Shown here: in pieces, positions 3,035 to 61,980 of the stretch | How the letters are laid out: every line of letters starts with the position of its first letter | Position numbering within the stretch: position 1 is the first letter of the stretch | NCBI GenBank assembly: GCA_017307505.1 | Contig: JAFKEE010000024.1 | Coordinates: 186,001-250,000, forward strand | Source: Acidobacteriota bacterium | Lineage (GTDB): Bacteria > Acidobacteriota > Terriglobia > Bryobacterales > Bryobacteraceae | Reading direction: 5' to 3' | DNA: 64,000 bases | The notes under the pieces: model-generated | The model's database searches: none | Told to the model about the DNA's origin: nothing | The model's input: the letters and a program-made list of their open reading frames with translations, nothing else | Position numbers and translations under genes: made by a program

Positions 3035-3745
3035 ATGCCTGACGACCTAAAGCCGGAAGGCGCCCCCGCGCCGGAGCCTGTTCCGCCAGCTCAAACGCCT
3101 GCCGCCGCTCCACAAACTCCCGATGCCGCACCGGTAACCCCGGCCGCTGCGCCGAAACCTGCAGCAGCAGCGGCGCCCAAGCCTCCGGCCGCCGCCGCAA
3201 AGCCGGCTGCTCCTCCTGCGCCCAAACCTCCGGCCGTCATGGTTACAGCCCCGTGGGAAGGCGAGTTACCATCCGCTCTGGCTGCTGAGTTTTCCGACCA
3301 GATCCCTGCCTTTCTCAGTTACCTGGGCCAGAATTTCCTGGTGGCGAAACCGGCCTCTGTGATTCCTATCCTGCAGTCCCTAAAGGACAATCACGGATTT
3401 GACTACCTGGTGGACATTACCGCGGTCCACTGGCCAAAACGTGATGAGCAATTCGACATCATCTACGTTCTCTACAGCTTCCGGAGGAACGAGCGGATCC
3501 GAATCAAAGTCCTGCTGAAGGATGGAGAGCAGATCGCCACGGCGACCACCGTGCACATCACGGCAGACTGGCTGGAGCGTGAAGTCTACGATATGTTCGG
3601 CATCGAGTTCGACGGGCATCCCAACATGCGGCGCATCCTGCTGCCGGACGAATGGTCCACCTTCCCTCTGCGTAAGGAAAACGGGATCCTGAACATGGAT
3701 CAGAAGTGGGTCCAGGAGAACCTGGGCATCGAGAGCGGACAATAG
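3035..3745 (+). CDS. nuoC: NADH-quinone oxidoreductase subunit C, operon 1, with Pro/Ala-rich N-terminal extension
   Basis: NuoC is the 30-kDa peripheral subunit of the Q-module of complex I. Residues about 75-236 form the conserved domain, with the family signature [10 protein letters not shown] at 181-190 followed by [14 protein letters not shown]. Residues 1-68 are almost only Pro, Ala and Lys, which is unusual for a cytoplasmic complex I subunit and makes the protein 236 residues long, against 162 for the operon 2 copy. The promoter and AGGA element support the ATG at 3035. An internal ATG at 3239 would remove the extension but lacks a ribosome-binding site. It is the first gene of the operon; nuoD follows after 2 bp. 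Confidence 0.92.
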
Positions 3746-3747
3746 CC

Positions 3748-4857
3748 ATGGCGGGAACCTTCCTCGATTCCACAGAACTAGTTCTGAACATGGGGCCCCA
3801 GCACCCCTCCACGCACGGTGTTCTGCGCGTGATCGTCAAGCTGGACGGCGAGCGCGTGTTGGGTACCGAGTCGGTGATCGGCTACCTGCACCGCGGCGTT
3901 GAAAAGATCGCTGAAAACCGCACCTACACGATGTTCGCGCCCTACGTGGACCGCATGGACTACGTAGCCGCGATTTCCAACGGGTTAGGGTACTGCCTGG
4001 CGGTGGAGAAGCTCCTCAATGCCGAAGCCACTCCGCGTGCACAGGCGGTTCGCGTCATCCTCACGGAACTCAACCGGATCGCGAGCCACCTTCTGTGGCT
4101 GGGCACGCACGCCCTGGACATTGGCGCCATCACCCCGCTGTTCTACTGCATGCGCGAACGTGAATACGCGCTGAACATCTTCGAGAAGTACTGCGGGGCC
4201 CGCCTGACCACCCACGCTTTCCGCATCGGCGGTCTGCAGTACGAGACCTACGAAGGTTTCGAGAAGGATACAAACGACTTCTGCGACATGATGCTGCCGA
4301 AGATCGATGAGTACGAAGAGCTGCTCACCGGCAACCGCATCTGGCGCGAGCGCATGATCGGCGTCGGCATCCTGAACACCGAGGACTGCAAAGCGTACGG
4401 CGTGACGGGTCCTATGCTGCGCGCCGCCGGCTGCGCCTGGGACATCCGCAAGGCGCTGCCGTACTCCGGCTACGAGAAATACGAGTTCGACATCCCGACC
4501 GGTCAGAACGGCGACACGTACGACCGGTACATGGTGAGAATGCAGGAGATGCGCCAGAGCGTGCGCATTGTCCGCCAGGCCGTGGCCGACATCCCGGCCG
4601 GCCCCATCATGGCCAAGGTGCCCAAGGTGCTGAAGCCGCCCGTGGGCGAGGCTTACGTCTCGATCGAAGCGCCCAAGGGCGAACTCGGTTACTACATTGT
4701 CAGCGACGGTTCCACGCAGCCTTACCGCTGCCGGGTGCGGCCGCCGTCCTTCGTCAATCTACAATCGCTCGACAAGATGGCGCGCGGTTCACTGGTGGCG
4801 GATCTGGTGGCCATCATCGGCACCATCGACATTGTGCTTGGGGAGGTGGACCGCTAA
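3748..4857 (+). CDS. nuoD: NADH-quinone oxidoreductase subunit D, operon 1
   Basis: NuoD is the 49-kDa subunit that forms the quinone-binding pocket with NuoB. The 369-residue protein begins with the hallmark [15 protein letters not shown] (residues 13-27) and ends with the typical DIVLGEVDR tail. It has no CxxC nickel ligands, so it is a complex I subunit and not a hydrogenase large subunit. The start is the ATG at 3748, two bases after the nuoC stop. The operon 2 copy is 411 residues with a longer N-terminus. Its obligatory partner NuoB is not encoded in this window. Confidence 0.95.
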
Positions 4858-4879
4858 CCCCCGGCGGATCTAAACGACC

Positions 4880-5335
4880 ATGCGTAAGCTTCTGAGAACT
4901 ATTTTTCTCGTCGACCTTGTGCAGGGCCTGATGGTGACCTTCCGGACCCAGAATCCGAAGAACATCGTCACCGAGCAGTATCCGGCCCAACGCCCCAAGA
5001 TCGCCGAGCGTTACCGTGGCGCTCCGCGGCTGAACATCAACCCGGAGAATGGACAAACCCTCTGCATCGCCTGTGACCTTTGTGCCCTGGCGTGCCCCGA
5101 GAATCTCATTGTTGTTGGTTGGGAGCGCAATCCCGAGACCAAGCGCAAAGACCTGATCAACTTCACTTACGACACCTCGCGCTGCATGTTCTGCGGCCTG
5201 TGCGAAGATGCCTGTCCGGTAGACGCTCTGGAACTGACGCAGGACTTTGAATTGGCGAGTTACTCGCGGGAAGGGGCGATCTTTGACCGGCAGATCCTCG
5301 AAGAGGGCATCAAGCCAACTAAGTACAAGTTCTGA
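4880..5335 (+). CDS. nuoI: NADH-quinone oxidoreductase subunit I, 2x[4Fe-4S]
   Basis: NuoI carries clusters N6a and N6b, which pass electrons from the peripheral arm to N2 in NuoB. The 151-residue protein has two CxxCxxCxxxCP motifs: C62, C65, C68, C72 and C102, C105, C108, C112. An N-terminal amphipathic segment (about residues 3-20) is typical of the membrane-facing end. This is the only nuoI in the window: operon 2 goes directly from nuoH to nuoJ, so this protein might serve both complexes. It lies 22 bp after nuoD. Confidence 0.95.
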   Translation: MRKLLRTIFLVDLVQGLMVTFRTQNPKNIVTEQYPAQRPKIAERYRGAPRLNINPENGQTLCIACDLCALACPENLIVVGWERNPETKRKDLINFTYDTSRCMFCGLCEDACPVDALELTQDFELASYSREGAIFDRQILEEGIKPTKYKF

Positions 5336-5383
5336 TCGCCGCCCGATCGACAGGGAGCGGGTTCTGAAACCCGACGTGTGCCC

Positions 5384-5890
5384 ATGCTAGAAACAGGATT
5401 TTTCTATGCGTTCGCCGCGCTGACACTCATCGGCGCGATTCTTACCGTCACTTTACGCAACGCCATCCATTGCGCCATCTCGCTCATCGGGTCGCTGGCC
5501 GGCGTCGCCGGACTCTACCTGCTGCAGAAGGCTGAGTTTCTCTTTGCCGTCCAGATCGTGCTGTATATCGGCGGCATCATGGTGCTCTTCCTTTTTGTGA
5601 TCATGCTGGTGAATCTGGACGCCGCCGCACGGGAGAGGCAGTACCACCGCCACTGGCTGGCCGCCGTCATCTGTACCGTCGGCTCCGGCGCCCTGATTAC
5701 CTGGTTCCTGCGCCAGGGTTCCGGCACCATGCACCTGGGCCAGTCGGCGCCCGAGCTTCCATCGGCGGGTAATGTCGAAGCGCTCTCCGATGTGCTCTTC
5801 AAACAGTATCTGGTGCCCTTCGAACTGGCCTCTGTGCTGCTGCTGGTGGCCGTTGTAGGCAGCGTCATCATGGCGAAAAAGAGGATCTGA
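5384..5890 (+). CDS. nuoJ: NADH-quinone oxidoreductase subunit J, operon 1
   Basis: NuoJ is a small membrane subunit of the proton-channel region (ND6 equivalent). The 168-residue protein has about five transmembrane helices. Its third helix contains VLYIGGIMVLFLFVIMLVN, matching the conserved pi-bulge helix of the family. I chose the ATG at 5384; a GTG two codons upstream (5378) is possible. No strong ribosome-binding site is seen. It lies 48 bp after nuoI and 3 bp before nuoK. Confidence 0.92.
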   Translation: MLETGFFYAFAALTLIGAILTVTLRNAIHCAISLIGSLAGVAGLYLLQKAEFLFAVQIVLYIGGIMVLFLFVIMLVNLDAAARERQYHRHWLAAVICTVGSGALITWFLRQGSGTMHLGQSAPELPSAGNVEALSDVLFKQYLVPFELASVLLLVAVVGSVIMAKKRI

Positions 5891-5893
5891 CCC

Positions 5894-6205
5894 ATGCTGC
5901 ACCCCATCACCACGGAACACTATCTCGTCCTGAGCGCCGCGTTGCTGCTCATCGGCACCGTGGGAATCCTGCTGCGCCGCAATGCGGTAGTCGTCATGAT
6001 GTCCCTCGAGTTGATCCTGAATGCGGTCAACATCAATCTGGTCGCCTTCGGCAAGCATCTGCAGCAGCTCAATGGCCAGGTTTTCGCCATCTTTATCATC
6101 ACTGTTGCCGTGGCGGAAGCCGCGGTTGGCCTTGGCATCCTGATCGCCGTCTTCCGGAACAAGGAAACGGTGCTGGTCGACGAAATCGACCTGTTGAAGT
6201 GGTAG
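5894..6205 (+). CDS. nuoK: NADH-quinone oxidoreductase subunit K, operon 1
   Basis: NuoK (ND4L equivalent) is a three-helix membrane subunit. The 103-residue protein has the expected length. It contains the conserved acidic residues in helices 2 and 3, within SLELILNAVNINLVAF and VAVAEAAVGLGI, which take part in the proton path. It follows nuoJ by 3 bp and lies 14 bp before the nuoL start. Confidence 0.94.
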   Translation: MLHPITTEHYLVLSAALLLIGTVGILLRRNAVVVMMSLELILNAVNINLVAFGKHLQQLNGQVFAIFIITVAVAEAAVGLGILIAVFRNKETVLVDEIDLLKW

Positions 6206-6219
6206 GAGGAGCCGGCACG

Positions 6220-8250
6220 ATGAACTTCCTCGATCTCATCTGGCTGATCCCCATCCTGCCGCTCTGCGGCGCGGCGATCATGCTGTTCTTTGGCCGCAAT
6301 CTACCCAAAGCGGCGATCCGGGTGATCAGCCCCGGCGCGGTTGGGCTCTCATTCCTGCTGTCTCTCGGAGCGGTGCTGCAACTCGCCTCTCTGCCCGAGA
6401 AAGTGCACCAGGTCATCCTGTTCCAGTGGCTCCCGTTGCTCCATGCCGATATGGGCTACATGCTGGACCCGCTGTCGAGCGTCATGATCCTGGTCGTCAC
6501 CGGCATCGGCTTCCTGATCCATGTGTATGCCACCGGCTACATGGCTCATGAGCACGGACCCCGGCACGGCGGCTTTTACCGCTTTTTCGGATACCTCAAT
6601 CTGTTCGTCTTCTTCATGCTGACTCTGGTGCTGGCCAACAACTACCCGCTGTTGTTCGTCGGCTGGGAAGGTGTGGGCCTGTGCAGCTACCTGCTGATCG
6701 GCTTCTACTTCAATAAGAAGAGCGCCGGGGATGCGGGCAAGAAGGCCTTTATCGTCAACCGGATCGGTGATGCCGGCTTCATTCTGGGCATGTTCTTCCT
6801 GTTCCAGATTACCGGCTCGCTCACCTTTGTCGATGTGAACGAGGCGCTGCGGTCTGCCCGGTTCTCGCCCGAGGTCGGCGTTTTCGGTGTGCTGAGCCTG
6901 ACCGCGCTGCTCCTCTTCGTCGGCGCCACCGGCAAGAGCGCGCAGATTCCGCTGTACGTTTGGCTTCCCGACGCGATGGAGGGCCCGACACCGGTCAGCG
7001 CCCTGATCCACGCCGCCACCATGGTGACCGCCGGCGTCTACATGTGCGCCCGGTCGAATGCGCTGTTCGCCCTGACCCCCGAGACTTCCCACATCGTGGC
7101 TGCGGTCGGAGCTGCGACGGCCATCTTCGCCGCCTCCATCGGCTTGGTTCAGAACGACATCAAGCGCGTCCTCGCTTACTCCACGGTTTCCCAGCTTGGG
7201 TACATGTTTGTTGCGGTGGGCGTTGGCGCCTACTGGGTAGGCGTCTTCCACCTTTATACGCACGCCTTCTTCAAGGCCCTGCTCTTCCTCGGCGCCGGAT
7301 CGGTGATCCATGCCGTGAGCGGTGAGCAGGATATGCGCAAGATGGGCGGACTGAAGGATAAGATCCCGGTCACATTCGGCACCATGTTCATCGCTTCCCT
7401 GGCCATTGCGGGCATCCCTGGTCTGGCCGGATTCTTCTCGAAAGACGAGATCCTGTGGCAGGCGTGGTCTTCGCCGCTTGGCTCCAAAGTGTTGTGGGCC
7501 GTGGGCTTCTGCACTGCCCTCATGACCGCCTTCTACATGTGGCGGCTGATGTTCATGACCTTCTACGGCGAAGGGCGCATGGACGAACACACGAAGCACC
7601 ACATTCACGAGTCGCCCAAGTCCATGACCGTCCCGTTGATGGTTCTAGCCGCCGGGTCCGTCTGCGCCGGCTGGATCGGGATGCCGAAAGTTTTCGGGGA
7701 GAACGGTTTCTTCCAGGGGCTGGAGCACTGGCTCGCGCCGGTCTTCGAGACCGGTAAAGAAGTTGCTGAGCATGGAGCCGAGCATCACGACACCAGCATG
7801 GAGTGGGTCCTTATGGGCCTGTCGATCGGCGCGGCGCTCTCCGGTATCTTCCTGGCTCGCCATATCTACCTGAAAATGAAGGAATCCGACCGCCCGACCG
7901 GCGGCGCGCTCCACCCCATTCTGTACAACAAGTGGTATGTGGACGAGATCTACGACTTCCTCTTCGTTCACGGCTTCTCGATGCGCGGCGGGTCGCTCAT
8001 GGCTGCCTTCGACCGCACGGTGGTCGACGGCGGTGTCAACGGAACCGCCTGGCTGACCAAGATGGTCTCCCGCATCTCCATGTGGTACGACACCTGGATC
8101 GTTGACGGGCTCGTCAACTTGAGTGCCTACACGGTCCGGGCGCTGTCGTTCCCGGTGCGCTTCTTCCAGACGGGTTTCCTCCAGTCATACGCACTCGTCT
8201 TCATCGCCGGAGTCTTCGCCATGTTCGGATACTTCTGGTGGGTTCGCTAG
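6220..8250 (+). CDS. nuoL: NADH-quinone oxidoreductase subunit L, operon 1
   Basis: NuoL (ND5) is the distal antiporter-like proton-pumping subunit with a long lateral helix. The 676-residue protein contains the family signatures FVGWEGVGLCSYLLIGFYF and LPDAMEGPTPVSALIHAATM and a C-terminal extension with YNKWYVDEIYDFLFVHGF. I chose the ATG at 6220 because AGGAGGA lies about 9 nt upstream and homology starts at once; an upstream in-frame start would overlap nuoK. It is about 60 residues longer than the operon 2 NuoL, mostly in the linker and C-terminal part. Confidence 0.95.
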   Translation: MNFLDLIWLIPILPLCGAAIMLFFGRNLPKAAIRVISPGAVGLSFLLSLGAVLQLASLPEKVHQVILFQWLPLLHADMGYMLDPLSSVMILVVTGIGFLIHVYATGYMAHEHGPRHGGFYRFFGYLNLFVFFMLTLVLANNYPLLFVGWEGVGLCSYLLIGFYFNKKSAGDAGKKAFIVNRIGDAGFILGMFFLFQITGSLTFVDVNEALRSARFSPEVGVFGVLSLTALLLFVGATGKSAQIPLYVWLPDAMEGPTPVSALIHAATMVTAGVYMCARSNALFALTPETSHIVAAVGAATAIFAASIGLVQNDIKRVLAYSTVSQLGYMFVAVGVGAYWVGVFHLYTHAFFKALLFLGAGSVIHAVSGEQDMRKMGGLKDKIPVTFGTMFIASLAIAGIPGLAGFFSKDEILWQAWSSPLGSKVLWAVGFCTALMTAFYMWRLMFMTFYGEGRMDEHTKHHIHESPKSMTVPLMVLAAGSVCAGWIGMPKVFGENGFFQGLEHWLAPVFETGKEVAEHGAEHHDTSMEWVLMGLSIGAALSGIFLARHIYLKMKESDRPTGGALHPILYNKWYVDEIYDFLFVHGFSMRGGSLMAAFDRTVVDGGVNGTAWLTKMVSRISMWYDTWIVDGLVNLSAYTVRALSFPVRFFQTGFLQSYALVFIAGVFAMFGYFWWVR

Positions 8251-8265
8251 CGGAGCTATAGAGAT

Positions 8266-9807
8266 ATGCAAGGACACCTACTTTCGGTCATCCTGTTCAC
8301 GCCGCTGGCCGGACTCTTCCTTCTGCTGTTCATTCCCAAGTCGCAGAAGACGTTCATCCGGCTTTGGGCCAACATCACCGCCGCGGTTGGCTTTCTGGTC
8401 TCACTGCCTCTGATTATTGGCTTCGACCGTTCCAATGGCGGTTATCAGTTCGTCGAACGAGCGGAATGGATTCCATCCCTCGGCGTGCAGTATCTGATCG
8501 GCGTCGATGGCATCAGCGTGCTGATGGTGATGCTCACGACGATCATGGGCTTCCTGGCGATCTTCTCCTCGTGGGATTCGATCAAAGACCGGGAGAAGGA
8601 ATACTACTCGATGTTCCTGCTCCAGCAGACCGGCATGCTGGGCGTCTTCATCTCGATGGACTTTCTCCTGTTCTACGTGTTCTGGGAGATGGTCCTTGTC
8701 CCGATGTACTTCATCATCGGCGTGTGGGGCGGGCCCAGAAAGCTGTACGCGGCCATCAAGTTCTTCCTCTATACCCTGACCGGCGGCGTCCTGATGCTGC
8801 TGGGCATCCTGCTGCTCTACTTCAACTACGCTTCGCAGTTCGGGCGCTACACGTTTGAGATTGCGGAACTGATGAAGATCAATCTGCCGCTGGCCACGCA
8901 GCAGTGGGTGTTCTGGGCCTTCTTCGTCGGCTTCGCCATCAAGGTCCCGATGTTCCCGTTCCACACCTGGCTGCCCGACGCTCATACCGAGGCGCCGACC
9001 GCGGGCTCCGTCATCCTGGCGGCCGTACTGCTGAAGATGGGCACATACGGATTCATCCGGTTTTCGCTGCCGCTGCTGCCCAAAGCCAGTTCCGATCAGA
9101 CGATTGTCACCATCGTCGCGGTCCTGTCGATCATCGGCATACTCTACGGAGCGCTGGTCAGTCTGATGCAGCAGGACTGGAAGAAACTGGTGGCCTACTC
9201 CTCCGTCAGTCACCTCGGATTCTGCACATTGGGCATCTTTGCTCTGAATCAGAGCGGCATCGCCGGCTCAGTGATCCAGCAGATCAATCACGGCATCTCC
9301 ACCGGCATGTTGTTCCTTGTGGTGGGCGTGATTTACGAGCGCCGACATACGCGCGAGATTAAGGAATATGGCGGCCTGGCGCACATCATGCCGAACTACG
9401 CCATCGTCTTCGCCATCGCCATGCTCAGCAGCGCGGGCCTGCCTCTGCTGAATGGGTTTGTCGGCGAGTTCACCATCCTGCAGGGCGCGTTCGACGCCAA
9501 CCGGATTTGGGCGGCGTTCGCGGTGCTCGGCGTCATCTTTGGTGCCGCTTACCTGCTCTGGCTTTACCAGCGCACCATGCTGGGCGAAGTGACCAACGAG
9601 AAGAACAAGGGCTTGCCGGACCTGAAGTGGCGCGAATGGGCGGTCTTCGTCCCGCTCATCATCTGGGCCATCTCCATCGGCGTTTATCCCAAACCGTACT
9701 TCGACATTCTGGAAAAGCCGGTAGCGCAGATCGTGCACCGTGTACATGACACGGCCAACGCCGCCGCTGTGCCTGCCACTCCCACTCCGGAGGTTGCCTC
9801 CCGATGA
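8266..9807 (+). CDS. nuoM: NADH-quinone oxidoreductase subunit M, operon 1
   Basis: NuoM (ND4) is an antiporter-like membrane subunit that pumps protons. The 513-residue protein has about 14 predicted helices. It shows the conserved Glu-bearing helix in FYVFWEMVLVPMYFIIGVWG and the HTWLPDAHTEAPTAGSVILA signature. Its last four bases overlap the nuoN start (ATGA), so translation is probably coupled. Confidence 0.95.
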   Translation: MQGHLLSVILFTPLAGLFLLLFIPKSQKTFIRLWANITAAVGFLVSLPLIIGFDRSNGGYQFVERAEWIPSLGVQYLIGVDGISVLMVMLTTIMGFLAIFSSWDSIKDREKEYYSMFLLQQTGMLGVFISMDFLLFYVFWEMVLVPMYFIIGVWGGPRKLYAAIKFFLYTLTGGVLMLLGILLLYFNYASQFGRYTFEIAELMKINLPLATQQWVFWAFFVGFAIKVPMFPFHTWLPDAHTEAPTAGSVILAAVLLKMGTYGFIRFSLPLLPKASSDQTIVTIVAVLSIIGILYGALVSLMQQDWKKLVAYSSVSHLGFCTLGIFALNQSGIAGSVIQQINHGISTGMLFLVVGVIYERRHTREIKEYGGLAHIMPNYAIVFAIAMLSSAGLPLLNGFVGEFTILQGAFDANRIWAAFAVLGVIFGAAYLLWLYQRTMLGEVTNEKNKGLPDLKWREWAVFVPLIIWAISIGVYPKPYFDILEKPVAQIVHRVHDTANAAAVPATPTPEVASR

Positions 9808-11273
9808 GCGTGTACTACACCTCGCTCGACCACTTCGTGCTGCTGCCGGTTCTTCTGCTGGCGCTGTTTGGTTGTGCCACGCTGCTGTTCGATTTCTGGG
9901 TTTTCCCCGAAGCGCATCAGCGCAAGTATCTGCTGATCTTTCTCGGCCTGGGCGAAGCATTCGCCGGTTGGGCCTACTGGCGGCAGGGGGCGGCGCTGGC
10001 CATCAACGGCGGTGAAATCTCAGCGTTCCATGGGGCGGTGGTGGTCGATCACTTCGCCCTGTTCTTCCACTGGATCTTCCTGATTACAACGCTGGTGGTG
10101 GGTTTGATCTCCTATCGCTATCTCGAAGTCCGGGACGAGCATCACGGCGAGTATTACGGCATCCTGATGCTGGCGCAGTGCGGCATGTTTTTCCTGGCCA
10201 GCGGCAACGACCTGGTTACGATTTTTGTCGGCTTAGAGACGATGGCCGTCTCGTTCTATGTCCTTGTGGGCTTTCTGCGCGCCGAGCAGCGCTCGAATGA
10301 AGCGGCGCTGAAGTATCTGCTTCTCGGCGGGCTCTCGTCGGGCTTTCTCGCCTACGGCTTCTCGATTCTGTACGGGATCGCCGGTTCCACCCTGCTCAAC
10401 GACATTTCCAAGGCAGTGGCGAGCCGCGGGCACTCAGATACGATCCTCTTCCTGGCCATCGCCACAACCACCGTCGGCCTGCTCTTCAAGATCGCCGCGG
10501 CTCCCTTCCATATGTGGGCTCCGGACGTGTATGAGGGCGCGCCAACAACGATTACGGCTTTCCTGGCCGTCGGATCCAAGGCTGCTTCATTTGCCCTGCT
10601 GATGCGGGTGTTCGCCAGCACCCTTGGTTCGGCCCGTTCCACGTGGGAGCCGTTGCTGATCGCTGCCGCCGTGCTTTCGATGACCATCGGCAATCTGGCG
10701 GCGATCACACAGACCAATACGAAACGGCTGCTGGCCTACAGTTCGGTGAATCATGCCGGCTACGTCCTGTTGGGCGTCATCGCCGGCAACAACACCGGCT
10801 ACAAGGGAGTTCTGATCTACCTGCTGGTCTACACCTTCATGAACCTCGGCGCGTTCCTGGTGCTCACCTCGCTCACGCGCAAGGGCTTAGCGGGGGAAGA
10901 CATCAACGACCTGCGCGGCCTGATGAAGAAGTCGCCCGGACACGCGCTGTGGATGCTGATCTTCCTGCTGTCTCTGGCCGGCATTCCGCCGACGGCCGGC
11001 TTCTTCGGCAAGTACTTTATCTTCCTGTCCCTGATCGAAACCGGCCACTATGTGCTGGCCGTCCTTGGCTGTCTGTATGCCGCTGTCGCCATCTACTACT
11101 ACATGCGGATGGTTAAGGCGATGTTCATCGAGACGGAGGAGGAAGAGACGCCGGCGTTGAGCACCAGTTTCGGCACTCAGGTTGCCTTGGTGGTGACCGG
11201 CGTAATGACCCTGGTCATCGGCGTCTACCCCGAGCCATTCGTCCGCCTGGCACAGCAGAGTTTCCAACGATGA
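9804..11273 (+). CDS. nuoN: NADH-quinone oxidoreductase subunit N, operon 1
   Basis: NuoN (ND2) is the third antiporter-like proton pump of complex I. The 489-residue protein has about 14 helices and shows conserved features: GLETMAVSFYVLVGFLR, AAPFHMWAPDVYEGAPT and KRLLAYSSVNHAGY. The start overlaps the nuoM stop by four bases. In most operons nuoN is the last gene; here nuoH follows 13 bp downstream. Confidence 0.95.
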   Translation: MSVYYTSLDHFVLLPVLLLALFGCATLLFDFWVFPEAHQRKYLLIFLGLGEAFAGWAYWRQGAALAINGGEISAFHGAVVVDHFALFFHWIFLITTLVVGLISYRYLEVRDEHHGEYYGILMLAQCGMFFLASGNDLVTIFVGLETMAVSFYVLVGFLRAEQRSNEAALKYLLLGGLSSGFLAYGFSILYGIAGSTLLNDISKAVASRGHSDTILFLAIATTTVGLLFKIAAAPFHMWAPDVYEGAPTTITAFLAVGSKAASFALLMRVFASTLGSARSTWEPLLIAAAVLSMTIGNLAAITQTNTKRLLAYSSVNHAGYVLLGVIAGNNTGYKGVLIYLLVYTFMNLGAFLVLTSLTRKGLAGEDINDLRGLMKKSPGHALWMLIFLLSLAGIPPTAGFFGKYFIFLSLIETGHYVLAVLGCLYAAVAIYYYMRMVKAMFIETEEEETPALSTSFGTQVALVVTGVMTLVIGVYPEPFVRLAQQSFQR

Positions 11274-11286
11274 GAGGCCCTATTCG

Positions 11287-12477
11287 ATGAGCACCGTTTT
11301 CACACAACCCTGGTTCATCCCGCTGGTTACAGGGATCATCATCATCGCGTTGGCTCCGTTGGCGGTGGCGTTTACCGTCTTGCTGGAACGCAAGGTGCTG
11401 GCGGACATGCAGGCCCGTCTGGGGCCGATGCGGGTGGGTCCGAATGGCGTTCTGCAAACCCTGGCCGACGCCGTCAAACTGCTGCTGAAGGAAGACATCG
11501 TCCCGAAGGACGCCAACCAGTGGATCTTCCGCTTTGCTCCCGCGATCAGTTTCTTCACCGGTGCGACCTGCCTGACGGTGGTCCCCTTCTCCGACACCAT
11601 CAAAGTGGCTGACGTGAATGTCGGCTTGCTGGTGATCTCCGCCATGTCGGCGGTCGGGATTCTGGGCCTGATCCTCGGCGGGTGGTCCTCGAACTCCCAC
11701 TACTCGCTGCTGGGCGGGCTCCGCTCGGCGGCCCAGCTGGTCAGCTACGAAGTGGCTCTCGGCCTGGCTCTGATGAGCGGTGTGATGTGCGCAGGCACGC
11801 TCTCGCTGACGGGCATCGTGCGGGCCCAGCAGTCGCAGGGCATCTGGTTCGCCTTCGACAACTACGGCCTGATGCTGGTGCCGATGGTGATCTACTTCAT
11901 CAGCTCGGTCGCCGAAACCAACCGCGCGCCCTTCGACCTGCCGGAAGCCGAATCGGAACTCGTGGCCGGCTATCACACGGAATACAGCGGCTTCCGCTGG
12001 GGTATCTACATGCTCTCCGAGTACATCAACATGTTTGCCGTCGGCAGCGTGTTGGTGACTCTGTTCTGGGGTGGCTGGTTGCGGCCTTTCCCGAGCATCT
12101 CCTGGCTGGCTCTTCCCTTGAATTACGGCACGCCACTGCTGGTCTTCGGCGGCACGGGGCTTGGCTGCCTGTATCTCTCCCGCCGACAGCCCATTCAGGG
12201 CTATGCCATTGGTATGGCAGGACTTGGTGTGGTCTTCCTTGGCGTGGCGGCGCTGTTCATGGTGCCGGCGGTGAACGGCCCTTCGGCCCCCGTGTTCTGG
12301 TGGGCGTTGAAGTTGTTTATCGTCCTCTACCTCTTCATCTGGCTGCGCGGCACCTTCCCGCGCTACCGCTATGACCAGCTTATGAATATCGGCTGGAAGA
12401 TCATGATCCCAACCGCTTTAGGTGCGATCTTCGTGAATGCTGTGGTGGGCATGGCCCGGCAAACCCTGGGCAAGTGA
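11287..12477 (+). CDS. nuoH: NADH-quinone oxidoreductase subunit H, operon 1
   Basis: NuoH (ND1) anchors the peripheral arm and forms part of the quinone entry channel. The 396-residue protein shows the conserved ERKVLADMQARLGPMRVGP start and the Glu-rich loop APFDLPEAESELVAGYHTEY. Its place at the end of the operon, after nuoN, is unusual because nuoH normally lies between nuoG or nuoD and nuoI. The Fe-S membrane protein gene follows after 44 bp. Confidence 0.95.
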   Translation: MSTVFTQPWFIPLVTGIIIIALAPLAVAFTVLLERKVLADMQARLGPMRVGPNGVLQTLADAVKLLLKEDIVPKDANQWIFRFAPAISFFTGATCLTVVPFSDTIKVADVNVGLLVISAMSAVGILGLILGGWSSNSHYSLLGGLRSAAQLVSYEVALGLALMSGVMCAGTLSLTGIVRAQQSQGIWFAFDNYGLMLVPMVIYFISSVAETNRAPFDLPEAESELVAGYHTEYSGFRWGIYMLSEYINMFAVGSVLVTLFWGGWLRPFPSISWLALPLNYGTPLLVFGGTGLGCLYLSRRQPIQGYAIGMAGLGVVFLGVAALFMVPAVNGPSAPVFWWALKLFIVLYLFIWLRGTFPRYRYDQLMNIGWKIMIPTALGAIFVNAVVGMARQTLGK

Positions 12478-51177: not shown

Positions 51178-51660
51178 ATGACCTTTTCACCCGAACTCGA
51201 AGCCAAGTTCGCGAAGATGATCCAGAACTACCCGCCGGGCCGCCAGAAGGGCGCGCTGATCCCGATGCTGTTGTTCGCTCAGGATGAAGTGGGCTCGATG
51301 ACCCCGGAACTGATCGACGAAGTTTCCAAGCGGCTCAAGGTGAATAGGGTAGAGATCGAGGAAGTCATCGGCTATTACACGATGCTGACCCGCGAACCGC
51401 GCGGTAAGCATCACGTACAGATCTGCACGAACGTGAGCTGCATGCTGACAGGCGGCGAAGAGCTCTACCAGCACGCCTGCAAGAAGCTGGGGATCGGCAA
51501 CAAGCAGAAGACGGCGGATGGGCAGTTCTCGCTGGAAGAAGTGGAATGCCTGGGTGCCTGCTCTTGGGCTCCGGCCATGATGGTCGACTACGACTTCCAT
51601 TTCAACGTGACGCCGGAGAAGCTGGACGGGCTCATCGAGAGCCTGAAGAAGACGCAGTAG
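51178..51660 (+). CDS. nuoE: NADH-quinone oxidoreductase subunit E, [2Fe-2S]
   Basis: NuoE is the 24-kDa thioredoxin-like subunit of the NADH module. The 160-residue protein has the N1a cluster ligands C83 and C88 (CTNVSC) and C124 and C128 (CLGAC), and the helical N-terminus of the family. It is the only nuoE in the window and supplies the NADH module to operon 2; operon 1 has none. Confidence 0.95.
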   Translation: MTFSPELEAKFAKMIQNYPPGRQKGALIPMLLFAQDEVGSMTPELIDEVSKRLKVNRVEIEEVIGYYTMLTREPRGKHHVQICTNVSCMLTGGEELYQHACKKLGIGNKQKTADGQFSLEEVECLGACSWAPAMMVDYDFHFNVTPEKLDGLIESLKKTQ

Positions 51661-51684
51661 GGGATCCATTCTGGGGAAAACGAA

Positions 51685-53007: not shown

Positions 53008-53016
53008 GGAGAAGAC

Positions 53017-55098: not shown

Positions 55099-55102
55099 GG
55101 CA

Positions 55103-56299
55103 ATGAACTTCTTCCTCCTCAGCCTGATCAAGACCGGCCTGGTGGCGTTTGTTCTGCTCACCACGCTGGCTTACCTGCAATGGATCGAGCGCAAAGTGCT
55201 CGCCCATATCCAACTCCGCCCCGGTCCCTATCGCGTTGGACCGCACGGCTTGCTGCAACCGCTGGCCGACGTCGTGAAGCTGGCTACAAAGGAAGGCGTC
55301 ATTCCGGGTAATGCCAACGTCTTCTTCTTCCTGTTCGCGCCGTTCTTCGCCGTCACTCTGGCCTTAACCTCGATCTCCGTAATTCCCTTTGGTCCGGAGA
55401 TCGAAGTGTTCGGCGTGAAAACGAACATGGAGCTGACGGGCGTCAACATCGGGGTCCTGTTCATCCTGGCTCTCTCCTCGCTGGGTGTGTACGGCATTGC
55501 CATCGGCGGCTGGGCTTCGAATTCGAAGTATTCGCTGATGGGCGGCCTGCGCAGTTCGGCCCAGATGATCAGCTACGAACTGCCGATGTCGCTGGCCATC
55601 GCCGCGCCGCTGCTGCTGGTGAACACCTTGAACTTCCGCGATATGGTCAACGCGCAGTCGGGCTACTGGCTGGGTGTGATTCCGAAGTGGAACGTCTTCG
55701 CCGGACCGTTTCCGCAGTTCTTCAGCTTCCTGATCTTCCTCATCGCGGCATTCGCGGAAACGAACCGCGTGCCGTTCGATCTGCCGGAAGCGGAGAGCGA
55801 ACTGGTGTCGGGCTTCCACACGGAGTACAGCTCGCTGGGCTTCGCGGCGTTCTTCATGGCGGAGTACGCGAACATGATCACGGTGTGCTCGGTGGCCACG
55901 CTGCTATATCTCGGCGGCTGGCAGCCGCTGTGGCCGTCGTCGCTGGGCTCCGATTTCGTGGCGCCGCTGATCCACTTTGCCGCGGCCGGCATGCTGTTCT
56001 ATCACGCCGGCCAGACGGTGAAGAGCCGCACCTGGGACCGCTTCTCGTTCCCGGCCTTCGGTGTCATCTTCCTGGTGGTGGGTGCGCTGTTCCTGGTTCC
56101 GGTACTGAAACCGATTCTGATTCCGCTGTTCTGGTTCGTGGGCAAGGTGGGCATCCTGCTGTTCATCTTTATCTGGATCCGTGGAACGCTGCCGCGCTTC
56201 CGTTATGACCAGCTCATGCGGTTTGCCTGGACGTTCCTGTTCCCGGTAGCCATCGTCAACCTGTTGATCACGGGTCTGCTGGTGGCCTTGCAGAGCTAA
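55103..56299 (+). CDS. nuoH: NADH-quinone oxidoreductase subunit H, operon 2
   Basis: This 398-residue ND1-type subunit has QWIERKVLAHIQLRPGPYRV and the loop VPFDLPEAESELVSGFHTEY. I chose the ATG at 55103, four bases after the nuoG stop, where the first helix starts. The gene directly downstream is nuoJ: nuoI, which normally sits between them, is absent. Confidence 0.95.
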   Translation: MNFFLLSLIKTGLVAFVLLTTLAYLQWIERKVLAHIQLRPGPYRVGPHGLLQPLADVVKLATKEGVIPGNANVFFFLFAPFFAVTLALTSISVIPFGPEIEVFGVKTNMELTGVNIGVLFILALSSLGVYGIAIGGWASNSKYSLMGGLRSSAQMISYELPMSLAIAAPLLLVNTLNFRDMVNAQSGYWLGVIPKWNVFAGPFPQFFSFLIFLIAAFAETNRVPFDLPEAESELVSGFHTEYSSLGFAAFFMAEYANMITVCSVATLLYLGGWQPLWPSSLGSDFVAPLIHFAAAGMLFYHAGQTVKSRTWDRFSFPAFGVIFLVVGALFLVPVLKPILIPLFWFVGKVGILLFIFIWIRGTLPRFRYDQLMRFAWTFLFPVAIVNLLITGLLVALQS

Positions 56300-56315
56300 T
56301 GAGGTAGCACGCGAA

Positions 56316-56810
56316 ATGGACGCATTGTTGTTTTTCCTGTTCGCCGCGATCGCTGTGGGCTGCGCCATCAATCTGGTGTTGCAGACGCACCCGATTTCGA
56401 GCGCTTTGTCACTAGTTGGCGTGATGGGTTCGCTGGCTGTGCTGTACCTGCTGTTGGGTGGCGAATTCATCGCCGCGGTGCAGTTGATCGTCTACGCCGG
56501 CGCCATCATGGTGCTGTTCATCTTTGTGATCATGCTGCTGAATGCGGGCGCTGAGAAGAAGCCGACGAGGAACATCCTGCGAGCCGCCGTGGCTCTGCCT
56601 CTGCTGTTCACCCTGCTGGCTATCGGCGCGTTCCTGGTCGCTTCGCAAACACCGTCCACCGACGTAGTGAAGTTCGGCAGTTTCCTCGTTGGGGGCCACG
56701 AGATCGGAAGAGCGCTGTTCACCACTTATCTGCTGCCCTTCGAGGCCACATCCATCCTGATCCTCATCGCCATCCTCGGGGCGATTGTGCTGGCCCGGAA
56801 GGAGATCTAA
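56316..56810 (+). CDS. nuoJ: NADH-quinone oxidoreductase subunit J, operon 2
   Basis: This 164-residue ND6-type membrane subunit has about five helices and the conserved VQLIVYAGAIMVLFIFVIML. It lies 16 bp after nuoH and 9 bp before nuoK. Confidence 0.93.
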   Translation: MDALLFFLFAAIAVGCAINLVLQTHPISSALSLVGVMGSLAVLYLLLGGEFIAAVQLIVYAGAIMVLFIFVIMLLNAGAEKKPTRNILRAAVALPLLFTLLAIGAFLVASQTPSTDVVKFGSFLVGGHEIGRALFTTYLLPFEATSILILIAILGAIVLARKEI

Positions 56811-56819
56811 CGAAACCCC

Positions 56820-57152
56820 ATGCCTGAGCTGCCCATCGCACTACCCGCCCACGTACCGCTGTCCTGGTACCTGATTCTCAGTGTGATCCTGTTCGTGGTC
56901 GGCGCTGCCGGATTTCTGCTGCGCCGCAACATTATCACCGTATTCATGTGCATCGAGCTGATGCTGAATGCGGTGAATCTGACGTTCATCGCCTTCAGCC
57001 ACCAGTTGAAGCAGGTGGACGGGCACATCTACAGTTTCTTCGTGATGGTTGTAGCCGCGGCCGAAGCCGCCGTGGGTCTCGCCATCATTCTCACGGTGTT
57101 CAAGAATCGTTCGACGCTGGAAGTCGACGAAGTCTCCTCGATGAAGCTCTGA
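56820..57152 (+). CDS. nuoK: NADH-quinone oxidoreductase subunit K, operon 2
   Basis: This 110-residue ND4L-type subunit has three helices with conserved Glu residues in CIELMLNAVNLTFIAFS and VAAAEAAVGLAII. It lies 9 bp after nuoJ and 4 bp before nuoL. Confidence 0.94.
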   Translation: MPELPIALPAHVPLSWYLILSVILFVVGAAGFLLRRNIITVFMCIELMLNAVNLTFIAFSHQLKQVDGHIYSFFVMVVAAAEAAVGLAIILTVFKNRSTLEVDEVSSMKL

Positions 57153-57156
57153 TCCG

Positions 57157-59010
57157 ATGCATCAACTCTGGCTCATTCCCGCATTGCCGTTTGCCGGATT
57201 TCTGGTGAACGGTCTGTTCGGCCGCAAGCTGCCCAAAGCGGCCGTCAACGCAGCGGCAATCGGCAGCGTTCTACTCGCCTTCCTATGGGTCGTGAAGACC
57301 GTGCTCGCACTGGGCGCCATGGAGGCCCCGCATGTAGAGCACTACTTCACCTGGATCCAAAGCGGATACGTGAACATCGGTTTCGACTTCTCGGTCGATC
57401 GCCTCAGCGCCATCATGCTGCTGATTGTCACCGGCATCGGCACGCTCATCCACATCTATGCCGCGGGCTACATGGAGCACGAGGGCGGGTACTACCGCTT
57501 CTTTGCCTACCTGAACCTGTTCATGTTCTTCATGCTCGTGCTGGTGCTGGCCGCCAACTACCTGCTGCTCTTTGTCGGGTGGGAAGGTGTGGGTTTGTGC
57601 AGCTACCTGCTGATTGGCTTCTACTTCATCAAGAAGAGCGCGGGCGATGCAGGCAAGAAGGCATTCGTGGTCAACCGCGTCGGCGACTTTGGTTTCTCGC
57701 TGGCCATGTTCCTGATCCTGGTCCACTTCAAGTCGCTGGACTTCCAGACGGTGTTCGCCAAGGCCGGCGCGACGGATGCGGGTGGTGTCACCACCTCGAC
57801 ATTCACCTTGATCTGCCTTTTGCTGCTGGTCGGCGCGGCTGGTAAGAGCGCCCAGCTTCCCTTGTATGTCTGGCTGCCGGACGCGATGGAAGGTCCAACT
57901 CCGGTCAGCGCGCTGATCCACGCGGCCACGATGGTGACCGCCGGTGTGTATATGATTGCGCGGTCGGCCGTTCTGTTTAACCACGCCCCGGCTGCCCTGG
58001 ATGTGGTCGCCTACGTCGGACTGGCCACGGCTGTGATGGCCGCGACCATCGGCCTCACGCAGTACGACATCAAGAAGGTCTTCGCTTACTCCACGGTTTC
58101 GCAGCTTGGGTACATGTTCCTGGCGCTGGGCAGTGGGGCCTACTCCGCCGGCATCTTTCACGTGATGACGCATGCGTTCTTCAAAGCCCTGCTCTTCCTG
58201 GGCGCCGGGTCTGTGATTCACGCCGTGCACGGAGAGCAGGACCTGCGCATGATGGGCGGGTTGAGGTCCAAGATCCCGGTGACCTGCGCGCTCTTGCTGT
58301 GCGCCTCCGTGGCCATCGCCGGTGTGCCTCCGTTCTCCGGCTTTCACAGCAAGGACGCGATCCTGCTGGCCGCTCATGCCAAGGCACCCTGGATGTACTG
58401 GGTGGGCGTGGTGACCGCCGGGATGACCGCCTTCTACGTGTTTCGCGCCTGGTTCATGGCGTTCTTCGGCAGCTATCGCGGGCATGCGCATCCGCATGAG
58501 TCTCCGCTGATCATGACATTGCCGCTGGGCGTTCTGGCGCTGCTCAGCCTGGGCGGCGGGTATCTCGATGTCCCGCACTTCCTGGAACCGATGTTTGGAG
58601 GCGAACACGCCGCGCATGACGAGACCCTGGTGTTTATCTCCGTGGCCTCCGGTGTCCTGGGCATTGTTCTCGCCTACATCTTCTATGTGGCGAAACCCGG
58701 ATTGGCCGACGGCATCGCCCGCACGTTCTCGTGGCCCTACAAGGTGCTCTACAACAAGTACTACGTGGATGAGGCCTACGACGCCGTGATCGTCCATCCT
58801 ATCCGGGACGGCTCTACCAGCATCCTCTGGAAGGGCATCGACGCCGGCGTGATTGACGCCGCCGTGAATGGAGTGGGGTCGCTCTCGCAGGGGATCGGTG
58901 GCATCCTGCGGCACCTGCAATCCGGGTACATACGAAGATACGCCGCGTGGGTCGTGCTTGGCAGCATCGTTATTGTGGCTGTCGTCAGCTTCTGGGGAGG
59001 CGTTCGGTGA
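57157..59010 (+). CDS. nuoL: NADH-quinone oxidoreductase subunit L, operon 2
   Basis: This 617-residue ND5-type antiporter-like subunit has FVGWEGVGLCSYLLIGFYF, LPDAMEGPTPVSALIHAATM and the C-terminal YNKYYVDEAYDAV segment. It is about 60 residues shorter than the operon 1 paralogue. Its stop overlaps the GTG start of nuoM (GTGA). Confidence 0.95.
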   Translation: MHQLWLIPALPFAGFLVNGLFGRKLPKAAVNAAAIGSVLLAFLWVVKTVLALGAMEAPHVEHYFTWIQSGYVNIGFDFSVDRLSAIMLLIVTGIGTLIHIYAAGYMEHEGGYYRFFAYLNLFMFFMLVLVLAANYLLLFVGWEGVGLCSYLLIGFYFIKKSAGDAGKKAFVVNRVGDFGFSLAMFLILVHFKSLDFQTVFAKAGATDAGGVTTSTFTLICLLLLVGAAGKSAQLPLYVWLPDAMEGPTPVSALIHAATMVTAGVYMIARSAVLFNHAPAALDVVAYVGLATAVMAATIGLTQYDIKKVFAYSTVSQLGYMFLALGSGAYSAGIFHVMTHAFFKALLFLGAGSVIHAVHGEQDLRMMGGLRSKIPVTCALLLCASVAIAGVPPFSGFHSKDAILLAAHAKAPWMYWVGVVTAGMTAFYVFRAWFMAFFGSYRGHAHPHESPLIMTLPLGVLALLSLGGGYLDVPHFLEPMFGGEHAAHDETLVFISVASGVLGIVLAYIFYVAKPGLADGIARTFSWPYKVLYNKYYVDEAYDAVIVHPIRDGSTSILWKGIDAGVIDAAVNGVGSLSQGIGGILRHLQSGYIRRYAAWVVLGSIVIVAVVSFWGGVR

Positions 59011-60521
59011 ACCTTTTGAACATACTCCTGATTGTGCCGGCGGCTGGCTTTCTGCTGACGCTGTTGTTGCCGAAGGACAATCCGGGCCTCGTCCGGAATT
59101 TCACGCTCTTTGTTTCGCTCATCGCATTCCTGCTGTCCCTGGGGCTCATCGGTCCGGTGCTGGCCAGCCCGCACCAGCTTTCGTTTGAGACCAACACGCA
59201 GTGGATTGAGTATCCTTCCATTCGCTATCACGTCGGCCTGGATGGACTCAGCCTGTGGCTGGTGATCCTTTCCACCTTCCTCACGCCGCTCGTCATCCTG
59301 GTGAGCTGGAAGTACATTCAGAAGCGCGTCAAGGAATACTACGCCTTCCTGCTGTTCCTGCTGTTCGGGGTGCTGGGCGTCTTCGTTTCCCTCGATCTCT
59401 TCCTGTTCTTCGTGTTCTGGGAAGTGTCGCTGGTGCCGATGTACTTCCTTGTCGGCATCTGGGGCCACGACAAGCGGATCTATGCCGCGGTCAAGTTCTT
59501 CCTGTATACGATGGCCGGTTCCGCGATGATGCTGATCGCGATGGTGTACCTCTACAACAAGAGCGGCACGTTCGACATCCCTCTGCTCATGGACATGATG
59601 GCGAAGGGCCGTCTGGTGCTGACAGGTACCGAAGGCTTCTGGTTGTTCATGGCCTTCTTTGTCGCTTTCGCCATCAAGGTTCCGCTCTTCCCGCTGCATA
59701 CCTGGCTGCCAGATGCTCACGGTGAAGCGCCCACGGCCGGTTCTGTGATGCTGGCCTCCGTGCTGCTGAAACTCGGCACGTATGGCATCGTCCGCATCTG
59801 CCTGCCGCTGTTCCCTGAGGCTTCGCACCAGAATGCGCAGTGGATTATCGGCCTGGCCATCGGCGGCATCATCTACGGTGCCCTGGTTGCCATGGTCCAG
59901 CCGAACATGAAGCGGTTGGTCGCATACTCTTCGGTCAGCCACCTGGGTTTCGTGATCCTCGGCGTCTTCACCTTTACGCAGGTGGGCCTCGACGGCGCGG
60001 TCTACCAGATGCTGAACCACGGTATCTCCACCGGCGCACTCTTCATCCTGGTGGGCATGCTCTATGAGCGCCGCCACTCGCTGGAGATTGCGGACTACGG
60101 CGGAGTGGGCACGGTGGCGCCGTGGCTCTCGACAATGTTCGTGATTACTACGCTGGCCAGTGTCGGTTTGCCGCTGTTGAACAACTTCGTGGGTGAATTC
60201 CTGGTGCTGCAGGGTGCGGCGGAGCGCAACTTCCTCTACGCTGTGTTCGCGGCGGTCGGCGTGATCCTGTCCGCGGTCTACATGCTCTGGATGGTCCAGC
60301 GAACCTTCTACGGCGAAACGCCCGACGAGGTGAAGCACCACTTCAGCGACCTTTCGGTTCGCGAATGGGGCGTGATCCTGCCGCTCATCGCCATGATGAT
60401 CTGGATGGGTATCGGATCAGGCAGTTTCATTCCAGCCATCAGCGCCAGCGATTCCAAGATACTTTCCGTGGTCCAATCGAAAGCCCCTGTCGCAGGGAAG
60501 GAGCTTGCCAATGCCCGCTAG
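59007..60521 (+). CDS. nuoM: NADH-quinone oxidoreductase subunit M, operon 2
   Basis: This 504-residue ND4-type antiporter-like subunit has FFVFWEVSLVPMYFLVGIWG and HTWLPDAHGEAPTAGSVMLA. I chose the GTG at 59007, overlapping the nuoL stop by GTGA, because the first helix begins there. The nuoN gene overlaps its end by 11 bases. Confidence 0.94.
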   Translation: MNLLNILLIVPAAGFLLTLLLPKDNPGLVRNFTLFVSLIAFLLSLGLIGPVLASPHQLSFETNTQWIEYPSIRYHVGLDGLSLWLVILSTFLTPLVILVSWKYIQKRVKEYYAFLLFLLFGVLGVFVSLDLFLFFVFWEVSLVPMYFLVGIWGHDKRIYAAVKFFLYTMAGSAMMLIAMVYLYNKSGTFDIPLLMDMMAKGRLVLTGTEGFWLFMAFFVAFAIKVPLFPLHTWLPDAHGEAPTAGSVMLASVLLKLGTYGIVRICLPLFPEASHQNAQWIIGLAIGGIIYGALVAMVQPNMKRLVAYSSVSHLGFVILGVFTFTQVGLDGAVYQMLNHGISTGALFILVGMLYERRHSLEIADYGGVGTVAPWLSTMFVITTLASVGLPLLNNFVGEFLVLQGAAERNFLYAVFAAVGVILSAVYMLWMVQRTFYGETPDEVKHHFSDLSVREWGVILPLIAMMIWMGIGSGSFIPAISASDSKILSVVQSKAPVAGKELANAR

Positions 60522-61980
60522 TTTCGTGCCGCCCTCCCCGCAGGAGTTGTTCCGGTTCGCGCCTGAAATGCTGATGACTGTGATTGCCACGCTCATCATG
60601 GTGATGGAGCCCCTGAGCGCGCCCGAAGGCAAGCGCAAGTTTGCCGTGATCACGTTTCTGACACTCGTCGCCGGCATCGTGCTGACCTTGATGGGCGCCA
60701 GCGATCCGGGTACCGCCTTCTCGAAAATGCTGGTGCTGGACGGTTTCGCGGAGTTCTTCCGGATTCTCGTGATGGTCGTGGGGCTGCTCATTGTACTGAT
60801 TTCCACGAACTATCTGAAGTTGGAGCAGCACGAGTCCGGTGAGTACTACGCGCTGATCCTGTTCTCGATCATCGGCCAGTGCCTGATGGTTTCCGCCAAC
60901 GAACTCATCATGCTGTTCATCGGGCTGGAGTGCTCGTCCATCGCCAGCTACGTTCTGGCCGGATACCTCCGTGACGACAAGCGAAACAACGAGTCGGCCT
61001 TGAAGTACTTTCTGCTTGGCTCGTTCGCAACTGCATTCCTGCTGTACGGCGTAGCCTGGATCTACGGCCTGACCGGCACCACGAACCTCAGCGCAATCCG
61101 CGCCACACTGCTGGATCCCACGAATCACCCCAACCTGGTGATGCTCGGCGCCGCCACGGCTCTGCTGTTTGTCGGCCTCGCTTTCAAGGTGTCGGCCGCT
61201 CCGTTTCAGATGTGGGCGCCGGATGTCTACCAGGGCGCCCCTGCTCCGGTTACCGCGTTCATGTCCGTTGGCCCGAAAGCAGCGGCGTTTGCGATGTTTC
61301 TGCGAATACTGATGACGGCCTTCGAGCCGTTGAAGGACCGTTGGGAGCCCATCCTCTGGACCTCCGCTCTGGTGACCATGCTCATTGGCAACTTCGCCGC
61401 CCTGCGCCAGGCAAATATCAAACGCCTGCTGGCCTACAGTTCTATTGCGCACGCCGGCTATGTCATGGTGGCCCTCACCACGCACAGCGAGATTGGTACC
61501 GCCGCCGCGATGTTCTATCTGGCGTCCTACGCCTTCATGAACATCGGTGCGTTCGCCGTAGTCACTTATCTTGCGCGCCGCGGCGAGAAGCATGTAGCCA
61601 CGCAGGACCTGGCCGGGCTCAGCCAGACGCAGCCGCTGGTGGCCGCCATGCTCACCATCTTCCTGCTTTCGCTGACTGGCATTCCGCTGACCGCGGGCTT
61701 CTTCGGCAAGTTCTACATCTTCAAGGCCGCTCTGGACGCCAACCTGGTCTGGCTGGCGGTGCTGGGCATGTTGAACAGCGCCGTGGCCGCGTACTACTAT
61801 TTGCGGATCATCGTCGTGATGTACATGGAGCCGCCGGCTGAGAGCGCCGAGGAACTGCTTGCTCCCACTGCCGGCATTCGCGTCGCGATTTTCTGCACCG
61901 CGATCGTTACGCTATTCCTGGGCATCTTCCCCTCGATCATTCTCGATTTCGCCGGGAAATCCGCTGCTCTGATCCGGTAG
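60511..61980 (+). CDS. nuoN: NADH-quinone oxidoreductase subunit N, operon 2
   Basis: This 489-residue ND2-type antiporter-like subunit has GLECSSIASYVLAGYLRDD, APFQMWAPDVYQGAPAP and KRLLAYSSIAHAGY. The ATG at 60511 lies inside the nuoM end; a TTG at 60505 is also possible. It is the last gene of operon 2; a strong terminator follows 38 bp after its stop. Confidence 0.94.
   Translation: MPASFVPPSPQELFRFAPEMLMTVIATLIMVMEPLSAPEGKRKFAVITFLTLVAGIVLTLMGASDPGTAFSKMLVLDGFAEFFRILVMVVGLLIVLISTNYLKLEQHESGEYYALILFSIIGQCLMVSANELIMLFIGLECSSIASYVLAGYLRDDKRNNESALKYFLLGSFATAFLLYGVAWIYGLTGTTNLSAIRATLLDPTNHPNLVMLGAATALLFVGLAFKVSAAPFQMWAPDVYQGAPAPVTAFMSVGPKAAAFAMFLRILMTAFEPLKDRWEPILWTSALVTMLIGNFAALRQANIKRLLAYSSIAHAGYVMVALTTHSEIGTAAAMFYLASYAFMNIGAFAVVTYLARRGEKHVATQDLAGLSQTQPLVAAMLTIFLLSLTGIPLTAGFFGKFYIFKAALDANLVWLAVLGMLNSAVAAYYYLRIIVVMYMEPPAESAEELLAPTAGIRVAIFCTAIVTLFLGIFPSIILDFAGKSAALIR

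Follow-up and report, generated by a model that had tools for sequence, protein, structure and literature searches.

Two complex I operons in an Acidobacteriota genome and the separate nuoA, nuoB and nuoI genes predicted to complete them

The cyanobacterial NDH-1 and Fpo are complex I-like enzymes without NuoEFG, and the cyanobacterial ndh genes are dispersed over several loci, with ndhK (nuoB) staying with ndhC (nuoA). The available part of a 2025 survey (PMC12361115) terms complex I-like enzymes without NuoEFG "C-I-like", attributes two complete complex I sets to Rhodopseudomonas palustris and to Acidiphilium cryptum, and reports that most Acidobacteriota have a complete complex I; no mention of a separate nuoB was found in that part. 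In this work we analyzed two nuo operons in a stretch of 64,000 nucleotides (the window; contig C70, positions 186001-250000) from an Acidobacteriota bacterium whose genome of 9.39 Mb, in 75 contigs, is 99.93% complete with a contamination estimate of 4.59%. Sequence comparison makes it probable (about 0.88) that this genome encodes two complete complexes, each with dedicated subunits supplied in trans, and that no sharing is required. Complex 1 would consist of operon 1 together with a nuoA on contig C32 and a nuoB on C66 (11 subunits, without an NADH module of its own), and complex 2 of operon 2 together with a nuoB on C20 and a nuoI on C32 (14 subunits). The two would be separate members of the complex I family whose operons were broken up over evolutionary time, one dedicated gene standing in for each missing subunit. 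This cognate pairing is drawn from synteny in relatives, from genomes with a single complex and from trees; each protein would assemble solely with its own set, and both complexes would be made.

The two operons and the genes found elsewhere in the genome

Profile matches of the open reading frames (ORFs) in the window gave operon 1 (3035-12477) the order C-D-I-J-K-L-M-N-H and operon 2 (48984-61980) the alphabetical order A-C-D-E-F-G-H-J-K-L-M-N, in agreement with the gene lists of a first-pass annotation of the window (the operon-2 M and N by PF00361). Operon 1 is without A, B, E, F and G, and operon 2 is without B and I; the earlier description of the operons as sharing missing parts thus holds for nuoB and not otherwise. 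Every subunit of both operons is an open frame covering most of its profile, and the few that fall below the NCBIfam curated cut-offs, among them both NuoJ and the operon-1 NuoC, still belong to the expected families. The features are as follows.

3035-3745, plus strand: nuoC, operon 1; TIGR01961 2.1e-35, 121.9 bits against a cut-off of 122.45
3706-4857, plus strand: nuoD, operon 1; TIGR01962 2.3e-152, above cut-off; overlaps nuoC as mechanically called
4880-5335, plus strand: nuoI, operon 1; TIGR01971 1.6e-33, above cut-off; two CxxCxxCxxxCP motifs
5378-5890, plus strand: nuoJ, operon 1; NF005165 3.2e-39, below cut-off
5894-6205, plus strand: nuoK, operon 1; NF004320 4e-33, above cut-off
6199-8250, plus strand: nuoL, operon 1; TIGR01974 9.3e-222, above cut-off
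8266-9807, plus strand: nuoM, operon 1; TIGR01972 1.5e-187, above cut-off
9804-11273, plus strand: nuoN, operon 1; TIGR01770 2.5e-132, above cut-off
11287-12477, plus strand: nuoH, operon 1; NF004741 1.1e-95, above cut-off
48984-49382, plus strand: nuoA, operon 2; NF005922 1.9e-35; PF00507 3.3e-37, above cut-off
49396-49884, plus strand: nuoC, operon 2; TIGR01961 3.1e-42, above cut-off
49898-51160, plus strand: nuoD, operon 2; TIGR01962 3.6e-168, above cut-off
51178-51660, plus strand: nuoE, operon 2; TIGR01958 2.4e-45, above cut-off
51685-53007, plus strand: nuoF, operon 2; TIGR01959 2.5e-181, above cut-off; sole such NuoF in the genome
53017-55098, plus strand: nuoG, operon 2; TIGR01973 6.5e-152, above cut-off
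54959-56299, plus strand: nuoH, operon 2; NF004741 3.5e-91, above cut-off; homology from about residue 48-54, true start probably near 55.1 kb
56316-56810, plus strand: nuoJ, operon 2; NF005165 5.4e-30, below cut-off
56820-57152, plus strand: nuoK, operon 2; NF004320 2.1e-36, above cut-off
57157-59010, plus strand: nuoL, operon 2; NF005141 1.1e-222, above cut-off
58947-60521, plus strand: nuoM, operon 2; PF00361 2.3e-78 and Oxidored_q5_N; position kept in relatives
60505-61980, plus strand: nuoN, operon 2; PF00361 2.3e-82; position kept in relatives

None of the genome's four matches to PF01058 (NuoB / hydrogenase small subunit) lies inside the window, where nuoI above cut-off occurs in operon 1 alone and nuoA in operon 2 alone. 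These results, the lack of a nuoA or nuoB ahead of the operon-1 nuoC, and the 13 bp between nuoA and nuoC in operon 2 (49382 to 49396) are all as first annotated. No complex I genes were found among the scanned part of the ORFs in the roughly 35 kb separating the operons (efflux, RecG, PEP mutase and others).

Genome-wide, two of the four PF01058 matches (frames of 191 and 192 aa) are Nuo-type, one being on C66 and one on C20, so that the expectation of a NuoB encoded elsewhere was correct; of the other two, the one on C9 adjoins a NiFe hydrogenase large subunit and the one on C35 is classed as hydrogenase-like by its longer match alone. For nuoA (PF00507) there are two matches, in operon 2 and on C32, and for nuoI (TIGR01971) eight, of which two are above the cut-off, in operon 1 and on C32; the C32 nuoI lies about 6 kb from the C32 nuoA on the opposite strand. 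The three rows for nuoD (PF00346) represent two genes, both in the window. By these counts both nuoB, one nuoA and one nuoI are located away from the other nuo operons, and it is in this sense that a gene is called separate here; it may still share a transcript with a non-nuo gene. Since A, B and I are each present in two copies, each complex can own all three. The first-pass annotation had proposed that NuoI, and perhaps NuoA, may be shared. Sharing of this kind presupposes fewer than two genomic copies, and there are two each of nuoA, Nuo-type nuoB, nuoI and nuoD; the second nuoI and second nuoA, together with synteny, single-complex genomes and trees, give each complex one A, one B and one I, and the counts and the pairing evidence remove the need to share NuoB, NuoI or NuoA. 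A-B-I sets for both complexes thus exist in substance, on three contigs and not at one third locus.

The C66 nuoB overlaps the next gene, which encodes a laccase-domain protein, by four bases, and because of this overlap co-transcription is probable. The C20 nuoB is divergent beside malQ, with flagellar genes farther on; in its start region RNA folding (z-score -0.51) and a scan for promoter-like sites (none) and terminator-like sites (two, on the opposite strand; 0.8 expected, sd 0.9) gave nothing clearly above chance. Identity is 65% between the two NuoB, and 35-52% for the other paralogue pairs, including 37% for each of the A and I pairs. The cysteine pattern of cluster N2 (CC, C, C) is intact in both NuoB; among 60 NuoB rows the hydrogenase-like L158 alone is without it (59 of 60), and the two-cluster NuoI motif (two 4Fe-4S) is present in 24 of 26 NuoI (missing in L194 and L201).

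Probable pairing of the separate genes with each operon

Linkage of the nuo genes was analyzed in a class-level sample of 41 genomes, our own included, with neighbouring matches less than 15 kb apart counted as linked. Operon-2-type nuoD is present in 31 of the 41. In 26 of these, nuoA and nuoD matches lie close together (start of nuoA 1.2-1.9 kb from nuoD) with no linked nuoB or nuoI match; the remaining five, which all belong to family code f40, keep A-B-D-I together. Eight of the 41 genomes (G020, G040, G049, G063, G076, G083, G091, G093) contain the split operon-2 complex alone. Each of the eight shows, at 1e-20, one match for nuoA and one, separate, for nuoI; PF01058 is matched once genome-wide in six of them, and the extra PF01058 matches in G049 and G091 are classed as hydrogenase-like by match length or a weak nuoD-like neighbour. 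With one A, one I and one Nuo-type B available, it must be the separate nuoB and nuoI that complete operon 2 in these genomes. The nuoB of seven of the eight (not G091) matches our C20 gene best, at 74-80%, and nuoI from three of them match our C32 nuoI at 73-75%. In our genome NuoA, C-H and J-N are encoded together, with NuoE, NuoF and NuoG above their cut-offs, and the N2-ligand NuoB of C20 and the two-4Fe-4S NuoI of C32 fully cover the remainder; by its gene content complex 2 should be a canonical 14-subunit NADH:quinone oxidoreductase.

For complex 1 the pairing can be read from less divided relatives. A and B are found just upstream of nuoC in the operon-1-type operons of G068, G074 and G021 (L159, L160, L197), the last a genome from outside the class, and as a pair detached from C-D in G061, G080 and G067 (L157, L161, L176); in all five same-family genomes with operon-1-type nuoD, ours included, A and B are each apart from other nuo operons. 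The A and B of the less-split and split-pair relatives are closest to our C32 nuoA and C66 nuoB. Operon-1-type sets are kept in five of the seven same-family genomes sampled, again including our own, where the set is complete for A, B, C, D and H-N, i.e., 11 subunits. Separately, in three f39 genomes (G061:C66, G074:C47, G080:C253) nuoB and nuoD matches fall in one frame of 774-886 aa, which occurs beside the type-1 sets and looks like a B-C-D fusion.

The NuoB tree (59 rows, careful method, midpoint root, with the class sample represented by some of its genomes; any frame longer than 1.8 times its match was trimmed to the match and the NuoB homologue L158 was omitted) joins 21 separate C20-type NuoB with those of E-F-G operons from G022, G042, G051 and G044 (support 97/86), and the C66-type with type-1 NuoB (96/83). 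The 65% identity could hint that one NuoB arose late by duplication of the other, but the tree does not support this. Between 12 type-1 and 21 type-2 separate NuoB, 55 of 160 columns are invariant, and four of the seven columns that separate the types lie just past the third cysteine (S104/A128, S105/T129, V106/S130, P109/V133). Quick trees, with mostly modest support, place the C32 nuoA with the type-1 NuoA of the class and the window nuoA with operon-2 NuoA, and cluster the C32 nuoI with five further separate nuoI, of which three belong to single-complex genomes. It should be noted that one locus (L186, G090:C93) has a further nuoA-like match, a partial one, some 2 kb downstream of its separate nuoA.

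Operon 1 has no E, F or G, and the single NuoF above cut-off in the genome is that of operon 2; no NuoEFG of its own was found for complex 1, by a search that was genome-wide for NuoF and not for NuoE and NuoG. Two other PF01512 proteins were considered as a second NuoF and rejected, one being RnfC-like and the other a fusion with a NuoF domain, encoded next to a NiFe hydrogenase. When 20 class genomes were picked and scored by the curated TIGR01959 cut-off, 14 had a NuoF above it, ten with operon-2-type nuoD and four with a third nuoD type. The six others all lack operon-2-type nuoD, and two of them (G068 and G092) have the operon-1 type alone; type-1 complexes thus seem able to live without the N-module. 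The electron donor of complex 1 would be other than NADH, perhaps ferredoxin, which is a guess by analogy. Another diaphorase may also serve, since each of the six NuoF-negative genomes retains a weaker, longer NuoF-like protein; that the Hox diaphorase feeds cyanobacterial NDH-1 is an idea already in print (PMC9414918). The RnfC-like (RnfC/NuoF-like) protein of our own genome (L217, G000:C59, 5738-7623) is encoded directly 5' of a BMC-domain gene, which suggests a bacterial microcompartment locus.

Break-up in relatives and competing explanations

The dispersal was followed through the best 80 of at least 558 relatives of the C20 nuoB; 51 of the 80 had at least 5 kb on each side. Among the matches listed, the nearest titled relatives are mostly Bryobacterales / Solibacter (Acidobacteriota) assemblies; the nuoB loci of two assemblies titled Arcobacter and Acidimicrobiia (L035, L102) share 83-84% identity with ours, a sign that these may be mislabelled metagenome bins. 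When flanks were searched for A, C, D and H-N (a query set without E, F and G), 79 of the 80 loci had none of these in the available flank. malQ is present in 64 of the 80, always on the opposite strand and in 62 cases no more than 600 bp away; among the 16 loci lacking it, seven have less than 1.5 kb upstream and nine have more. The laccase-domain neighbour of the C66 nuoB was found in all four same-family type-1 loci fetched and in none of seven other separate type-1 loci (L163 is cut at the gene). These gene addresses look inherited within the family or order. Outside the class, the operon-2-type operons of G022 and G042 have nuoA adjoining nuoB, and in G022 no nuoI was found in the sequence available, which extends to nuoN; from these few genomes it would appear that nuoI left operon 2 first and nuoB later. 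The stages sampled are an intact operon, a detached A-B pair, A and B apart, and operon 2 without I, then without B. In a phylum sample of 60 genomes the nuoA family occurs in 55 and PF01058 in at least 57. Judged from the rows by eye and not by count, many genomes outside the class have nuoA adjoining nuoB, and in some, such as G029, G035, G038, G054 and G056, the two are on different contigs, so that separation arose more widely or earlier. As judged from these genomes, the scattering is a lineage-wide break-up of operons, old and recurring in relatives, and not evidence of mixed assembly. Two genomes of the same class (G007 and G031; L148 and L151) have an added operon A, B, C, D, H-N with two NuoM-like genes in tandem and no match to E, F or G; it may represent a third kind of complex I beside split type 2.

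Several observations weigh against two dedicated complexes. The two NuoB are more alike than any other pair, so that exchange is conceivable, and only 7 of the 160 columns cleanly separate their types. Three NuoB whose E-F-G operons come from other parts of the phylum (L198, L202, L209) are long-branched and belong to neither group, and in a quick tree of mostly modest support the midpoint root leaves several distant type-1 NuoA on the same side as those of operon 2. One of the 80 loci (L063) has an operon-1 set and, some 5 kb downstream of it, a C20-type nuoB, and by itself would imply the opposite pairing; malQ is beside nuoB there too. Lastly, the four NuoF-positive genomes G061, G074, G078 and G080 combine operon-1-type nuoD with the third type and lack the operon-2 type. 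The resemblance of the NuoB pair, and the N2 ligand pattern intact in both, are what would allow NuoB, NuoI or NuoA to be exchanged or shared, with hybrid enzymes as the result. We consider such mixing very unlikely: the genome holds a full dedicated complement, the NuoB lineages remain apart in the tree, residues past the third NuoB cysteine differ consistently by type, and the A and I pairs share only 37% identity. That complex 1 borrows NuoEFG from operon 2, and is hence also an NADH enzyme, would fit the absence of an N-module from operon 1 and the single NuoF above cut-off, but G068 and G092 have operon-1-type nuoD with neither operon-2-type nuoD nor NuoF above cut-off, and borrowing is on this account unlikely.

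The decay and silencing of one operon finds no support in the sequence and is highly improbable given that the subunits are all open frames across most of their profiles and that operon-1-type sets persist in five of seven same-family genomes, all five with separate A and B. An assembly or binning artefact could be suspected from the 4.59% contamination estimate and from the 75 contigs, with the separate genes on contigs other than that of the window; this is barely credible, however, when the same split recurs in independent genomes, in 79 of the best 80 C20-type loci, and when in G076 operon 2, nuoB and nuoI are hundreds of kb apart within one contig. A distinctly unlikely extension of the two-complex reading is that separation of nuoB and nuoI from operon 2 was selected, with their separate expression (nuoB being divergent from malQ) gating the completion of complex I and with the two NuoB competing for both scaffolds, a competition limited to dual-complex genomes; if true, two Fe-S proteins of the quinone module would set the amount of complex I.

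Closely 3' of operon 1, at 12522-13598 on the plus strand, lies a NapH/MauN-like membrane ferredoxin gene (TIGR02163 4.8e-25, below cut-off; Fer4_5 8.4e-22) which may be a local electron-input partner. As a conserved partner of operon 1 it was rejected, with no tblastn match at 1e-6 in 61 relatives' loci, and its membership of the operon is doubtful. Elsewhere in the window are a caspase-domain (Peptidase_C14) protein with TPR repeats (20671-22752, minus strand) and, on the same strand, a DUF4384 protein (23460-24398).

Comparison with known systems

A reading of gene neighbourhoods would call both complexes incomplete; they are complete once the separate genes are counted. The intermediates of the break-up offer a natural test of how much operon linkage weighs in the assembly of a large membrane complex, and the cognate pairing is defined well enough to be checked biochemically. 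Two complex I sets, sets free of the N-module and dispersed complex I genes are already known. New, as far as these sequences indicate, are the stepwise dispersal across a lineage and the departure from the operon of nuoB, the gene of the central Fe-S subunit, in both complexes; no description of a separate nuoB in Acidobacteriota was found in the literature searched, a search that most subscription papers lay outside. Complex 2 resembles the canonical nuoA-N complex I in all 14 subunits and in its alphabetical operon order and differs in that its nuoB and nuoI are at loci without other genes of operon 2. Complex 1 resembles the C-I-like enzymes in having A, B, C, D and H-N without its own E, F and G, and differs in that A and B are away from the C-D-I-J-K-L-M-N-H cluster. 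R. palustris and A. cryptum likewise have two paralogous complexes per genome, whereas here one set is without the N-module and neither operon is intact. The dispersed ndh genes of cyanobacteria are a further parallel, the complex I genes of a free-living bacterium being likewise distributed among several loci; here, however, neither nuoB is located with any other nuo gene.

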